Shown piece after piece: positions 6,171 through 10,931 of a stretch of 64,000 bases of DNA. Numbering within the stretch: the stretch's first letter is position 1; each line of letters opens with the position of its first letter. The position numbers were made by a program, and so were the translations under genes. Source of the DNA: Sphingomonas sp. S2-65. Its GTDB lineage: Bacteria > Pseudomonadota > Alphaproteobacteria > Sphingomonadales > Sphingomonadaceae. The stretch is taken from contig NZ_CP090953.1 of the NCBI RefSeq assembly GCF_021513175.1, positions 1,817,001-1,881,000 of the forward strand, in the 5' to 3' direction. The notes under the pieces were generated by a model, which saw only the letters and a list, made by a program, of their open reading frames with translations, was not told where the DNA came from and made no database searches.

Positions 6171-6346
6171 TGGCCACCCGCCTCGCCTCCAGCTTCCCCG
6201 CTCGCCCAGCGCCGGAACTGTTCGCGCTTGTGGAAGCGCTTGCGCGCGCCGACGTTGCACGAAAGCATGCCGCGCTCCCCGAATCGAAGGAATTGGACCG
6301 TGCGCACGGTCATCTACGCCCGCTACAGCAGCCAGCTTCAGAATAA
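6170..6346 (+). CDS. Small hypothetical ORF overlapping the recombinase start
   Basis: 58 residues from ATG 6170, coupled to the previous stop (TGATG). It contains a plausible helix (APELFALVEALARADVARKH) and overlaps the GTG start of the recombinase by 47 bases in another frame. The overlap could couple recombinase translation to this gene. It might also be a non-functional reading frame. Confidence 0.45.
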   Translation: MATRLASSFPARPAPELFALVEALARADVARKHAALPESKELDRAHGHLRPLQQPASE

Positions 6347-7898
6347 CCGCTCGATCGCCGACCAGCTCGGCGTCTGCCGCGAGCGTGCGGCGCGCGAAGG
6401 CTGGACGGTGGTGGCCGAGTTTCAGGACGCGGCGATCAGCGGCGCCGCGGGCATCGACGAAGCGCAGCGCCCCGGCCTGAACGCCCTGCTCGCCACCGTG
6501 GAGGCGGGCGGCATCGACCAGGTGCTAACCGACACCACCAGCCGCTTGGCCCGCCACCTAGGCGACACCATTGCCATCCGCGAGCGGTTGGAGTTCGCCG
6601 GCTGCCGGCTCTTCACACTGGCCGACGGCGAGGTCGACGACATTACCGGCACCTTCAAGGGCCTGATGGATCAGCGCTTCCGCAAAGATCTGGCGCACAA
6701 CATCCGCCGGGCGCAGCGCGGCCGCGTCGCCGAGGGCCGCGCACCGGCCGGCCTCGCCTATGGATATAAGAGTGCCAATCGGATCGACGAGCGCGGCATA
6801 CCTGTTCGAGGCCTGCGCGCGATCGACGACGAAAAGGCGGAGATCGTCCGCCGTATTTTCCGCGAATACGCGGCCGGCCAGAGCCCCAGGGCCATAGCCA
6901 CGGCGCTGAACGCGGAGGGCATCCCCGGCCCGCGCGGCGGCACCTGGCGCACCTCCACGATCCTCGGCGGACGCAAGCGAACCGATGGCATGCTGAAGAA
7001 CCGGCTATATCGCGGCGAGCTGGTGGCGCAGCGCACGTCCAAGATCACCAACCCGCGCACCCGCAAGACGGTGATCCGCCCGAATCGGGAGAGCGAATGG
7101 GCGGTGCAGCAGGTGCCCGAACTGCGAATCATCGACGAGCCGGTATGGCTTGCCGTGCAGGCCGAGCTGGAAAGCCGGTCGGGCACGCCGTTCCAATTGC
7201 AGCCGCGCCCGAAGCACCTGCTCTCAGGCCTCGGCCGCTGCGGTGTGTGCGGCCGATCGTGGGTCAAGGTGAACGTGTCGCAGTGGGAGTGCTCCCGCTC
7301 GCGCGACGGCGCCTGCACCAACCGGCGGAGCATCACCTCGGCTCGATACGAACGCGAAGTGCTGGGCAGGCTGGAAACCGAACTGCTCCACCCTGACCTG
7401 GTCGACCACTATGTGAGGACTTGGCATCGCGAGAACGCGAAGCGCTCTGCGGAGAGCGCCAGCCGCCGCGCTTCGATCGAACGCCGCCACGCCGAAGCGG
7501 ACAGGAAGGTGAAACGCCTCGTTGCGTTCATCGCCGATGGTGACGGGGATTTCGCCGAGATGCGTACTGCGCTAGCGGCGGCGAGGACCGACAGAGACCG
7601 TGCCAGCGCAGAGCTAACCGAGATCGACGCCCCGCGCGTGGTCGCACTGCACACTGGTCTTGCCGACGACTATCGCCGACAGGTCGCCGCGCTGGCCGAG
7701 GCTCTTGCGGGCGATGAGGAAGCACGCCGCAACGCGATGCCGCAGCTTCGTGCTCTTGTCGATCGGATCGAGTTGCACCCAGCCGAAGGCCCGCGCGGCG
7801 TCACCGTGAAAGTGTTCGGACGGCTTCAGGAGATACTGCGGCTTGCCGGCACCCCGCTCCCTGTGGATCGAGTGGCGACTGTGAGCCAGAGGGCCTAA
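6300..7898 (+). CDS. Large serine recombinase (phage integrase type)
   Basis: 532 residues from GTG 6300 with AAGGA upstream; the conserved N-terminus begins immediately (VRTVIYARYSSQLQNNRSIA). Domains in order: resolvase catalytic domain (about 1-150) with nucleophile Ser10 in YARYSS and the Arg-containing TSRLARH region; 'Recombinase' DNA-binding domain (about 160-270, RAIATALNAEGIPGPRGG); zinc-beta-ribbon (about 325-360) with LLSGLGRCGVCG and ECSRSRDGACTNRRS; and a coiled-coil C-terminus (KRLVAFIADGDGDF..). It would catalyse attP x attB integration and, with a directionality factor, excision. Its final codons overlap the convergent cargo operon by 4 bases. Confidence 0.95.
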   Translation: MRTVIYARYSSQLQNNRSIADQLGVCRERAAREGWTVVAEFQDAAISGAAGIDEAQRPGLNALLATVEAGGIDQVLTDTTSRLARHLGDTIAIRERLEFAGCRLFTLADGEVDDITGTFKGLMDQRFRKDLAHNIRRAQRGRVAEGRAPAGLAYGYKSANRIDERGIPVRGLRAIDDEKAEIVRRIFREYAAGQSPRAIATALNAEGIPGPRGGTWRTSTILGGRKRTDGMLKNRLYRGELVAQRTSKITNPRTRKTVIRPNRESEWAVQQVPELRIIDEPVWLAVQAELESRSGTPFQLQPRPKHLLSGLGRCGVCGRSWVKVNVSQWECSRSRDGACTNRRSITSARYEREVLGRLETELLHPDLVDHYVRTWHRENAKRSAESASRRASIERRHAEADRKVKRLVAFIADGDGDFAEMRTALAAARTDRDRASAELTEIDAPRVVALHTGLADDYRRQVAALAEALAGDEEARRNAMPQLRALVDRIELHPAEGPRGVTVKVFGRLQEILRLAGTPLPVDRVATVSQRA

Positions 7899-8347
7899 CC
7901 TACCTCGACGCCGTCGATCTCGACGAACCACTCTGCAGCCCTCTTGAGGGCATTCTTCTGACCCTTGCTTGAAATACCCCAAACCTCCCCGTGATAAGGG
8001 TTAGCGGGCAAACCGTCGACTTCCGGAATAGGATTATAGCCGACCTTCAGAGAGAGCCCCCGCAGGAAGCCGGCCGAAAACTTCACGGATCCAATCCAAC
8101 GGGGAGTCGTCACCCACTCTCTGGGATCTCGTCCGTCAGCGACAACGAACGGCAACACGTCAACAGACATGCCACCGTTCGAGCCGGATCCCTGATACGC
8201 CAATGACGAGATGCGCCGCTTCCCGTCCTTGTCTCTCGAAACCTGAAGCTCGGAGATACGGCGGATTACAACGTCAGCGTCATCAATGTCTGTATGATCG
8301 TGGGGAGTAACAGCCCCGGCCGCATCACGCGGCGGAGGCGTGGGCAA
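7895..8347 (-). CDS. Third gene of cargo operon, conserved protein of unknown function
   Basis: 150 residues from TTG 8347, which has GGAG 7 bases upstream and overlaps the preceding gene by 23 bases. Conspicuous segments are HDHTDIDDADVVIRRISELQ, KRRISSLAYQGSGSNGGMSV, EWVTTPRWIGSVKFSAGFLR and NPYHGEVWGISSKGQKNALK. The ordered HDH and YHGE residues could bind metal, but no catalytic fold is recognised. I believe similar proteins occur elsewhere beside partner genes like the two upstream; a database search would be needed to confirm that. The pattern of tightly overlapping genes implies the three act together. Confidence 0.8.
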   Translation of the reverse strand: MPTPPPRDAAGAVTPHDHTDIDDADVVIRRISELQVSRDKDGKRRISSLAYQGSGSNGGMSVDVLPFVVADGRDPREWVTTPRWIGSVKFSAGFLRGLSLKVGYNPIPEVDGLPANPYHGEVWGISSKGQKNALKRAAEWFVEIDGVEVG

Positions 8348-8798
8348 GAGCAGGCTCCGTCACTTCACGAACCCACCGAGCAACATCGGTGAAGTCGTTC
8401 GTGAGTGAGACTTCGTTTCCTTCATAATCCCCAGCCGGCGCGAACCAAGCGCCGACATTGTTTGGGCTCCTCACGTGAAGCTCAAGATCACCGTTTTCGG
8501 TGTGCCACTCAATCTGCAAATCACCCGCCGTTCCAGGGATGATCTGAGGCGCCGGAGCGTCTTCTTGGCAGATGTTTTCGAGCATATTTAGGGCAAAATG
8601 AGCAGTGTCGAAGCTGACCGGACGCGCACGATAGCCGTCCCAACCTCGCGGCAATGCTGCAAGCTCGTTCAACTTCCGCGTAACTTCGCGAGCCCAGTCC
8701 CGGCGCGGCGTAGACACAACAACACGAGCCCCTCCCGAGACGAAGGAGCTAGGGAACTCTCTCACGTTCCCCCAGACGAAATTCGATCGCTCGCGCAT
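8325..8798 (-). CDS. Second gene of cargo operon, GWDGY-motif protein
   Basis: 157 residues from ATG 8798, whose first base is the last base of the upstream stop (TAATG); an alternative start at 8813 adds five residues. The protein contains ELAALPRGWDGYRARPVSFD, then a helix, then PAPQIIPGTAGDLQIEWHTE followed by GDLELHVRSPNN. The LPxGWDGYxAxP motif with an 'I.P...G.i.iEW' strand region is a recurrent unknown-function arrangement in mobile regions. No transmembrane segment is seen. Coupled translation with its neighbours suggests a fixed-stoichiometry complex; inferred. Confidence 0.82.
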   Translation of the reverse strand: MRERSNFVWGNVREFPSSFVSGGARVVVSTPRRDWAREVTRKLNELAALPRGWDGYRARPVSFDTAHFALNMLENICQEDAPAPQIIPGTAGDLQIEWHTENGDLELHVRSPNNVGAWFAPAGDYEGNEVSLTNDFTDVARWVREVTEPALAHASAA

Positions 8799-9604
8799 TA
8801 CTTCCGATCCCAAAGCTTGTGCGCTTTGTCTGTCGTTATAGCGGTAAATTCATTCACTATCACTTCTCGGCCAGCCGTCAAATGCCCAACCGCTCCGGCA
8901 ATACCTGGTTCCGACGGAGCTCCGCGATAGGTCAGGTTGAGAATGCCTACGACCTCGCCGGCGGCGTTCTGCCCAATGTTAGTTTCGACATGCAGACGGC
9001 CTGTAGGCTTCCCATCCCTACCAGGAACGATGCGCCGATAGCGGATCTGTGCAGCTTCGGGAGCTAGGTGGGCGAGGTTCACAATGCTGAGGTAGTCATC
9101 TAATCCGGAGAATTCACCAGGCTGGCCGAGCGGAAAATGATTGATGTAACCGATCTCGGCTTGTGTGATCTCGATTTTTTGCGGCCAAAGCTCCCCGAAG
9201 TATCGCTCCAGGGCTTCGGCCTCCCGCTCGAAGGCTGCAATCATGCTCTCGAAGCGCGGGTAGGGTCGATCAACGTCCTCGCGCTTACGCCAGTTGTGGA
9301 ACAGCCGGTCACTCTGAAACTGGATTAACTCGTCACCTCGCGAATTCAGAAACCAGAAGCGATCATGCTGCGCGCCCTGAATCAACTGGAACTCAGAGGT
9401 ATGAATCTGAAGAGGTCCAAAAGTCTCGAACGTCGGAGGCAAAGCCTGCTGCTCCTCGACGGCCGGGTAATCCGCACGATAGAGATTCCAAACCTCGCCA
9501 GCACGAATTTGTTGATACCCTTCAGCCTCACGGAACTGAATGCCGAGGACCGCCTCATTCAAAGGGGGCGATCCGAAGTCAGGCAAGTGCGCGGGCCGCG
9601 TCAT
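8798..9604 (-). CDS. TIGR04255-family protein, first gene of cargo operon
   Basis: 268 residues from ATG 9604 with GGAG 5 bases upstream. The N-terminal pattern LPDFGSPPLNEAVLGIQFRE is the signature of the sporadically distributed TIGR04255 family, and the RFWFLNSRGDELIQFQSDRL segment and the KIEITQAEIGYINHF core also fit. Family length is usually about 250-270 residues, so it is complete. The function of the family is unknown; members are patchily distributed and often in mobile or defence-rich loci. Base composition is visibly lower in G+C than hemW next to it, consistent with acquired cargo. Its own promoter lies at 9637-9665. Confidence 0.85.
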   Translation of the reverse strand: MTRPAHLPDFGSPPLNEAVLGIQFREAEGYQQIRAGEVWNLYRADYPAVEEQQALPPTFETFGPLQIHTSEFQLIQGAQHDRFWFLNSRGDELIQFQSDRLFHNWRKREDVDRPYPRFESMIAAFEREAEALERYFGELWPQKIEITQAEIGYINHFPLGQPGEFSGLDDYLSIVNLAHLAPEAAQIRYRRIVPGRDGKPTGRLHVETNIGQNAAGEVVGILNLTYRGAPSEPGIAGAVGHLTAGREVIVNEFTAITTDKAHKLWDRK

Positions 9605-9636
9605 CGAATCTCCGGTCGGCTATAGGTGCCCAGCCT

Positions 9637-9665
9637 ATTATAGGGCGGCTCCCGTCATGCTACAA
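9637..9665 (-). promoter_or_regulatory. Near-consensus sigma-70 promoter of the cargo operon
   Basis: On the minus strand a perfect -10 TATAAT (9642-9637) is preceded after exactly 17 bp by TTGTAG (9665-9660). Transcription would start near 9630, about 25 bases before the ATG at 9604, with GGAG in between. Such a strong, repressor-independent promoter would let the three genes be expressed from the integrated prophage. Confidence 0.7.
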
Positions 9666-9743
9666 AAATTTGCCGATGCCTACCTTGCCCCACCCAAATG
9701 GATCGACCCGCCGTCGACAACCGTGATGAATGATGATGCCTGA
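9657..9743 (+). other. Prophage-chromosome junction region with a 28-codon open frame
   Basis: Between the cargo operon and hemW (9605-9785) there is no tRNA. A short frame at 9657-9743 (FADAYLAPPKWIDPP, ending MNDDA) could be the 3' end of a gene cut by integration, but it matches nothing I recognise and its first bases overlap the -35 of the cargo promoter. In many alphaproteobacteria hemW directly follows rdgB; rdgB is absent here, in agreement with an insertion between them or nearby. Confidence 0.3.
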
Positions 9744-9785
9744 TGCAACACGATTCCCGTTACCCGCTCCACCGACCTGGAACCG

Positions 9786-10931
9786 ATGACCGCTGACCCC
9801 GCACCGCTGGCGCTCTACGTCCACTGGCCGTTCTGCGTGTCGAAATGCCCCTATTGCGACTTCAACAGCCATGTCCGCGAGACCGTCGACCAGGAACTGT
9901 GGCGCGCGGCATTGCTGGCCGATCTGGCGCATGAGGCCGCGTTGCTCCCCGGTCGACGGCTGGGATCGATCTTCTTCGGGGGCGGCACACCGTCGCTGAT
10001 GCCCCCCGAAACCGTTGCGGCGATCATCGATGCCGCAGCCGGGCATTGGCGGTTCGAGCCGGATATCGAGATCACACTGGAGGCCAATCCCTCGTCAGTG
10101 GAGGCGTCGCGCTTTGCCGATATCGGCCGGGCCGGCGTGAATCGCGTGTCGCTGGGGTTGCAGGCGCTGGACGACACTGCGCTGCGCTTCCTGGATCGCG
10201 CGCATGGCGTGGCGGAGGGACTGGCGGCGCTGGACACCGCGCAAGCCGTGTTCGAGCGCGTAAGCTTCGACCTGATCTATGCGCGGCCGACGCAGACGCT
10301 TGCCGATTGGCAGGCGGAACTGGCACGGGCGCTCAGCTTCGGGACCGAGCATCTTTCGCTGTATCAGCTCACGATCGAGCCGGGGACGCGCTTCGCCACG
10401 CTGTTCGAAAAGGGCGAGCTTGCCGCCTATGATTCCGACGAGGCCGCGGATCTGTTCGAGGCGACGCGGGCGATGACGGCGGCGGCGGGACTGCCGGCCT
10501 ATGAGATCTCCAACCACGCCCGGCCGGGGGCGGAGAGCCGGCACAACCTCACCTACTGGCGCTATGGCGATTATGCCGGCATCGGCCCGGGCGCGCACGG
10601 CCGGCGCGGCGGCGTGGCGAGCCTGCGCCGCAAAAAGCCGGAGAACTGGCTGACGGCAGTCCAGCGCAACGGCCACGGCATCGAACGCGAGGATCCGCTG
10701 GTGCCGCACGAGCGCGGCGTGGAAGCGCTGCTGATGGGCCTGCGGCTGGGCGAAGGCGTCGATCTGACCCGGATCGCCGCGCTGGCGGGCGGCGAGCTGC
10801 CGCTGGACGGGCACGCGCTTGCCGGGATGGCGCGGCAGGGGCTGGTCGTACACGACGCGGAGCGGCTGCGCGTGACCGACGCCGGGATGCCGGTGCTCGA
10901 AGCGATCTTGCGCGCGTTGGTGGTGGCTTAG
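9786..10931 (+). CDS. hemW: Heme chaperone HemW (radical SAM, formerly coproporphyrinogen oxidase-like)
   Basis: 381 residues. The radical SAM cluster motif is Cys17-x3-Cys21-x2-Cys24 in PFCVSKCPYCDFNSH, followed by FFGGGTPSLM and the SLGLQALDD segment. HemW lacks coproporphyrinogen oxidase activity in characterised bacteria and acts as a heme chaperone delivering heme to respiratory enzymes. The C-terminal HemN_C-type region is present (RGVEALLMGLRLGEGVDLTR). It is the first clearly chromosomal gene right of the prophage. Upstream SD is weak (TGGA). Confidence 0.93.
   Translation: MTADPAPLALYVHWPFCVSKCPYCDFNSHVRETVDQELWRAALLADLAHEAALLPGRRLGSIFFGGGTPSLMPPETVAAIIDAAAGHWRFEPDIEITLEANPSSVEASRFADIGRAGVNRVSLGLQALDDTALRFLDRAHGVAEGLAALDTAQAVFERVSFDLIYARPTQTLADWQAELARALSFGTEHLSLYQLTIEPGTRFATLFEKGELAAYDSDEAADLFEATRAMTAAAGLPAYEISNHARPGAESRHNLTYWRYGDYAGIGPGAHGRRGGVASLRRKKPENWLTAVQRNGHGIEREDPLVPHERGVEALLMGLRLGEGVDLTRIAALAGGELPLDGHALAGMARQGLVVHDAERLRVTDAGMPVLEAILRALVVA

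Follow-up and report, generated by a model that had tools for sequence, protein, structure and literature searches.

The stretch analysed here (the window) is 64,000 nucleotides of Sphingomonas sp. S2-65 DNA, contig NZ_CP090953.1. Its minus strand carries a compact operon, A-B-C, whose first gene, A (8798..9604), encodes a TIGR04255 protein of 268 aa. It is followed by gene B (8325..8813; 162 aa from a TTG start), whose product carries a GWDGY motif, and gene C (7895..8347; 150 aa, TTG start). An initial annotation made from the sequence had described three tightly overlapping and translationally coupled genes here. The three minus-strand open reading frames are indeed found, and the overlaps, 16 nt for A/B and 23 nt for B/C, bear out both the overlap and the coupling. 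An alternative ATG of B (8798-8796), which overlaps the TAA stop of A as TAATG and gives a 157-aa product, may be the true start. The private promoter proposed for the operon held up only in part: on the minus strand (9637..9665), TATAAT (9642-9637) and the 17-bp spacing are present, but TTGTAG (9665-9660) is a weak -35 box fitting 3 of 6 consensus positions, and a consensus promoter scan of 7700-9900 listed no site. No common operator palindrome was seen in 25 regions upstream of A. The genome, a single 3.8-Mb contig, has one copy of A.

The operon is prophage cargo, as the initial annotation had suggested from its position. Convergent with C, and overlapping its end by 4 nt, lies a large serine recombinase gene (6228..7898, plus strand; PF07508, PF00239 and phrog_95 integrase), the prophage integrase. 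On the other side, an attR copy (9751..9772, plus strand) is identical over 22 bp to the 3′ end of a tRNA-Gly located at genome position 1781620, 45 kb off, at the other prophage end. Between the two repeats are an S24-like repressor, the integrase and genes which resemble a phage structural block by size and order (judged by eye, with no family search of those genes). The operon therefore belongs to the prophage and occupies its right edge, with 146 bp between it and the att copy. The host gene just outside is hemW (9786..10931, plus strand; TIGR00539 278 bits, cut-off 205), which starts 13 bp past the att copy. Relatives of hemW were found in 19 of 21 genomes. Two relatives (L057 and L058) have an uninterrupted tRNA-Gly in front of the gene, and with the 22-bp repeat this shows that the predicted prophage-host junction is real. 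At L057, extra partial copies of the tRNA-Gly end precede hemW, which looks like the trace of earlier insertions at this position. The possibility of another small element lying within the prophage was rejected: no direct repeat of at least 9 bases is shared by 7601-7900 and 9601-9790. The left part of the prophage encodes a HicB-antitoxin-like protein (L047 8097-8489, by eye).

The three families occur together well beyond this prophage. C was used to scan 84,980 species, each represented by a single genome, and 25 loci were obtained. In 22 of them A, B and C follow in order on one strand, as judged by local profile searches (this count includes L032, where masked bases interrupt A), and in all 25 C comes immediately after B, which is truncated in L036. 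Since this order recurs at loci found with C alone, the arrangement is beyond chance. For the three loci devoid of A (L020, L026 and L036), tblastn with A gave nothing at E ≤ 0.01. L003 and L036 are the same DNA and were counted once among the genome loci; L010, at a contig end, and L011, where the B-like stretch lies in a 1005-aa frame, were not counted as operons, and at L098 A is a fragment. L036 (5795-6432, equal to L003 3009-3646) is a decayed copy, with a 65-aa B remnant, an intact-looking C, no A, and a tyrosine integrase and a repressor nearby. A viral contig (L002) carries all three genes. Of 397 host-family genomes, the window's included, 8 have B and 5 have C. Neither absence of co-occurrence nor matches to phage structural proteins or metabolic enzymes, which the initial annotation had named as arguments against itself, came out of these checks. 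The three-gene observation is confirmed and is more general than first described.

The motifs by which B and C had been described, GWDGY in B, HDH and YHGE in C, are all present. In alignments of 32 relatives for each protein, B never varies at W58-D59, nor C at H119. C matched no Pfam family. Its structure model (pLDDT 95.8) retrieved Tpt1, HopF2, NarE and RES among other rows of a structural search, and residues R29, S61 and H119 are conserved across 44 sequences. As judged by this model, C probably has an ADP-ribosyltransferase (ART)-like fold. It is distant from the Tpt1/KptA RNA 2′-phosphotransferase and from other ART folds, with about 10% identity, and only the C-terminal lobe of Tpt1 was matched. 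Against viral structures nothing was found at E ≤ 0.001, a viral RNA 2′-phosphotransferase appearing at rank 47 with E 3.6. No relatives of the window C were found in plasmids.

In Pfam, B reaches only a sub-threshold match to PF17390 (15.1 bits, cut-off 22.1). It does match the PADLOC model PDC-M32A (E 2.4e-10), at profile positions 257-368 of a full-length profile of 375-384 positions; B is thus equivalent to the C-terminal part of PDC-M32A, without its N-terminal part of about 250 residues, and does not qualify as a full-length PDC-M32A. The window C had no PADLOC match at E ≤ 1 and hence is not itself called PDC-M32B. At L132, the gene after a near full-length PDC-M32A encodes a member of the C family, called PDC-M32B by PADLOC (E 4.2e-29); the C of L009 gave a weak match to the same model (E 0.0046). 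From these two matches, B-C and the published defence candidate PDC-M32 are pairs of one kind, with the difference that the operon has TIGR04255 as a separate gene. This lends substance to the suspected link to defence. It also corrects the earlier view that none of the three families has a known function, since B and C can be placed with a named defence candidate, and the wider family of A precedes at least one recognised toxin gene. PDC-M32 figures in one open paper, on Sinorhizobium prophages, as PADLOC matches only. Searches of viral contigs, plasmids and phages with B found no relatives.

The assignment of A to TIGR04255 is sound, with 58.4 bits over residues 12-265 against a curated cut-off of 30; the alignment made for A comprises 28 sequences. 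A matched no Pfam family, and the name TIGR04255 was not found in the 5.39 million papers searched. Its model (pLDDT 89.7) did not bring SecB among the 50 structural rows listed, an absence to which we attach no evidential weight. Homology to the chaperone SecB was not found by profile-profile comparison with 30 SecB sequences, where the probability was below 1% for A and for each of its halves. An internal repeat in A, suspected from the strand order, was likewise not detected by profile comparison.

We then considered TIGR04255 irrespective of B and C. The family is present in 24 of 299 genomes of the phylum, at 26 places, and a repeat search (9 of 74 genomes) added no new place. Two tightly coupled downstream genes were scored at 23 of the 26 places; by this rule, SecB loci scored in 7 of 30 cases and hemW loci in 0 of 18. 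The score is mechanical: L077 scores 0 though two genes are present, and L089 scores 2 though one is present. L083 has no coupled genes, and L090 ends at a contig edge. While the first gene is constant, the third changes. It belongs to the C family at 10 places (iterated profile, window included), with two more joined by a single profile-profile link, and carries an SNTCDM-like motif at four. Three further kinds, grouped by eye, occur at two loci each (L081/L086, L077/L078 and L094/L101). The remaining places have a MazF/PemK protein (L080), an unclassified protein (L093), no third gene (L083) or one that is cut off (L090). At L080 (about 1460-2860), TIGR04255, a 95-aa protein and MazF/PemK are spaced by 1 and -11 nt, and the MazF assignment is firm (PF02452, E 1.1e-18; solved MazF chains matched). 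Among the middle genes, seven belong to the B family, and two others have helix-turn-helix matches, one of them over the cut-off.

Similar rows exist on plasmids. In Mycobacterium paragordonae, TIGR04255 is followed by B-like and C-like genes, with a relaxase gene beside them. The Vibrio parahaemolyticus plasmid CP063527.1 (L136 158-2105) encodes, one after the other, TIGR04255, an unknown protein and a zeta toxin (so annotated); the last has no PDB sequence match, its identity resting on the record annotation and a visible P-loop. Plasmid records of Crinalium, Thermus and Phocaeicola show TIGR04255 followed by further gene pairs. The SNTCDM-like third genes behind TIGR04255 (L079, L082, L089, L100 and L134), an unnamed family, come from Pseudomonadota and a Phocaeicola plasmid, the latter by eye. 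At L089, the TIGR04255 operon is enclosed by two direct repeats, 34 and 31 bp long, located upstream of A and about 1.0-1.1 kb past its stop. A HEPN identity for the third genes of L094, L101 and L137, proposed by eye, was not retained: L094 has no Pfam HEPN match, and a PDB search gave only tryptophan synthase rows, taken as chance. The TIGR04255 protein of L076 had no relatives found in phages.

Relatives of the operon also lie at tRNA genes. In 10 of 32 loci (within L017-L041 and L049-L055), the 400 nt upstream of A include the end of a same-strand tRNA, where 0.27 would be expected from the 16 tRNAs in these loci. Four loci repeat the tRNA-Thr 3′ part, without mismatch over 45-52 bp, at 90-112 bp past C, and the units so bracketed (approximately L029 4487-6596, L032 4254-6584, L033 3535-5633 and L035 1944-4051) measure 2.05-2.29 kb. 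A-B-C fills 1.74-1.79 kb of this, which leaves no room for an integrase, and a recombinase would be needed in trans. L037 has a like layout with a diverged right copy (30/40 identical). Cis-mobilizable or helper-dependent integrative elements are a known class. The tRNA-Thr units share with it the bracketing by tRNA 3′-end copies and the lack of an integrase; they differ by being unusually small, with a single operon and a putative mobility, and the window copy differs by sitting in a full prophage. Together with the plasmid copies, these sites uphold the cargo role proposed at the outset. We also scanned 257 of 258 picked neighbouring genes (the MobF relaxase of L045 was left out); family matches cover the first 25 of 219, 179 and 47 families and all 17 of the last batch, hence no per-locus rate is given. 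Among the matches listed are four phage integrases (second batch; at least one counted twice, as the scan took in both L003 and L036), conjugation coupling proteins, IS66, and PADLOC models of MADS, type I restriction and methylases at E ≤ 1e-10. As a listing rather than a measure of enrichment, this neighbourhood is consistent with mobile cargo.

Taken together, these results suggest, with a probability of about 0.55, that A-B-C, as prophage cargo, forms a tripartite toxin-antitoxin-like module in which TIGR04255 is the accessory partner. The operon, its conservation, its prophage position and the relation of B-C to PDC-M32 are observed. So is the association of A with changing third genes, one of them a recognised MazF/PemK toxin, and the interpretation rests chiefly on this constancy of TIGR04255 beside exchangeable antitoxin-toxin-like pairs. 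We infer that C would be the toxin, probably with an ART-like fold, and B the antitoxin that keeps C inactive. A would be the constant accessory protein, stabilising B or sensing infection, as the chaperone does in toxin-antitoxin-chaperone (TAC) systems. Withdrawal of A, for instance through binding by some phage product, would lead to the loss of B and free C; the resulting growth stop of the infected cell would protect other lysogens.

A close parallel, besides PDC-M32, is CmdTAC. According to the published account (PMC11618068), the CmdA antitoxin ends in LAA, as do other TAC antitoxins, and is degraded by ClpP once a capsid protein draws the chaperone away; growth inhibition is reported there for CmdT together with CmdA. 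The likeness lies in the three coupled genes, the ART-like third protein of A-B-C, a helper with exchangeable toxin-antitoxin pairs, and the AA end of some proteins in the antitoxin position. A helper encoded with an antitoxin-toxin pair, a feature of TAC systems, is found at L080; for the window C the toxin role is only predicted. The differences are the lack of SecB homology in A, the order helper-antitoxin-toxin, and the R-S-H residues of C in place of the H-Y-[E,D,Q] triad of CmdT (same account).

Several observations limit this interpretation, in its degron or in its defence part. The window B ends in SAA, and AA and AAA ends occur in 15 and 10 of 32 B proteins, compared with 10 and 1 of 231 neighbouring proteins. 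However, the AA end goes with the overlap between B and C: 12 of 14 overlapping B genes have it, against 3 of 17 non-overlapping ones (one undetermined), which confounds the parallel with CmdA. The other middle genes of the wider TIGR04255 loci have no AA end. As to defence, tblastn with A and B against 50,697 phage records gave nothing (C was not searched there), and the neighbours are mixed, some defence genes and integrases lying beside much housekeeping. The initial interpretation is supported in part, with anti-phage activity and a physical three-protein complex as predictions.

The main competitor, doubtful though not negligible, is an ordinary addiction module made of the same toxin-antitoxin parts and selected for keeping a prophage, plasmid or island. 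The operon on a prophage and on plasmids (including the one beside a relaxase gene in M. paragordonae), its presence in tiny tRNA-bracketed units and the toxin-like third genes would all suit it. Yet B-C is related to the defence candidate PDC-M32, and the prophage end next to the integrase is also a usual place for defence cargo. In our view defence is the likelier purpose, and the data do not separate the two. It is improbable, in our estimate, that A is a nucleotide- or ligand-binding sensor with a guanidino-kinase-like arrangement, rather than a chaperone, and makes or reads a signal controlling B-C. Least probable of all is a small operon of another kind, for lysogenic conversion or metabolism and with neither toxin nor antitoxin: Pfam gives no family for A or C and just a sub-threshold one for B, but the sporadic distribution in the host family, the exchangeable third genes with MazF/PemK among them, and the PDC-M32 link argue against it.

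The tripartite toxin-antitoxin-like reading has a broader form, which we hold more tentatively and at somewhat less than even odds. TIGR04255 would mark a widespread and new class of proteins that control toxin-antitoxin systems and have no SecB homology. In at least five bacterial phyla they would lead three-gene modules and accept many different pairs of antitoxin and toxin (ART-like, MazF, zeta, HEPN-like and unnamed); the ART-like version would also move as an integrase-less tRNA-Thr unit of about 2 kb, among the smallest integrative elements, mobilised in trans. If so, the ‘sporadic’ TIGR04255 family would become a search handle for toxin-antitoxin or defence modules, since whatever occupies the third position is a candidate effector. 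The question would arise whether toxin-antitoxin-chaperone logic had several origins, here with a partner that has no relation to SecB, and the 2-kb tRNA-bracketed units would exemplify a module that spreads with almost nothing but itself. The helper's relatives in front of other kinds of toxin genes hint at a broad, undescribed class of bacterial self-restraint or phage-defence switches.
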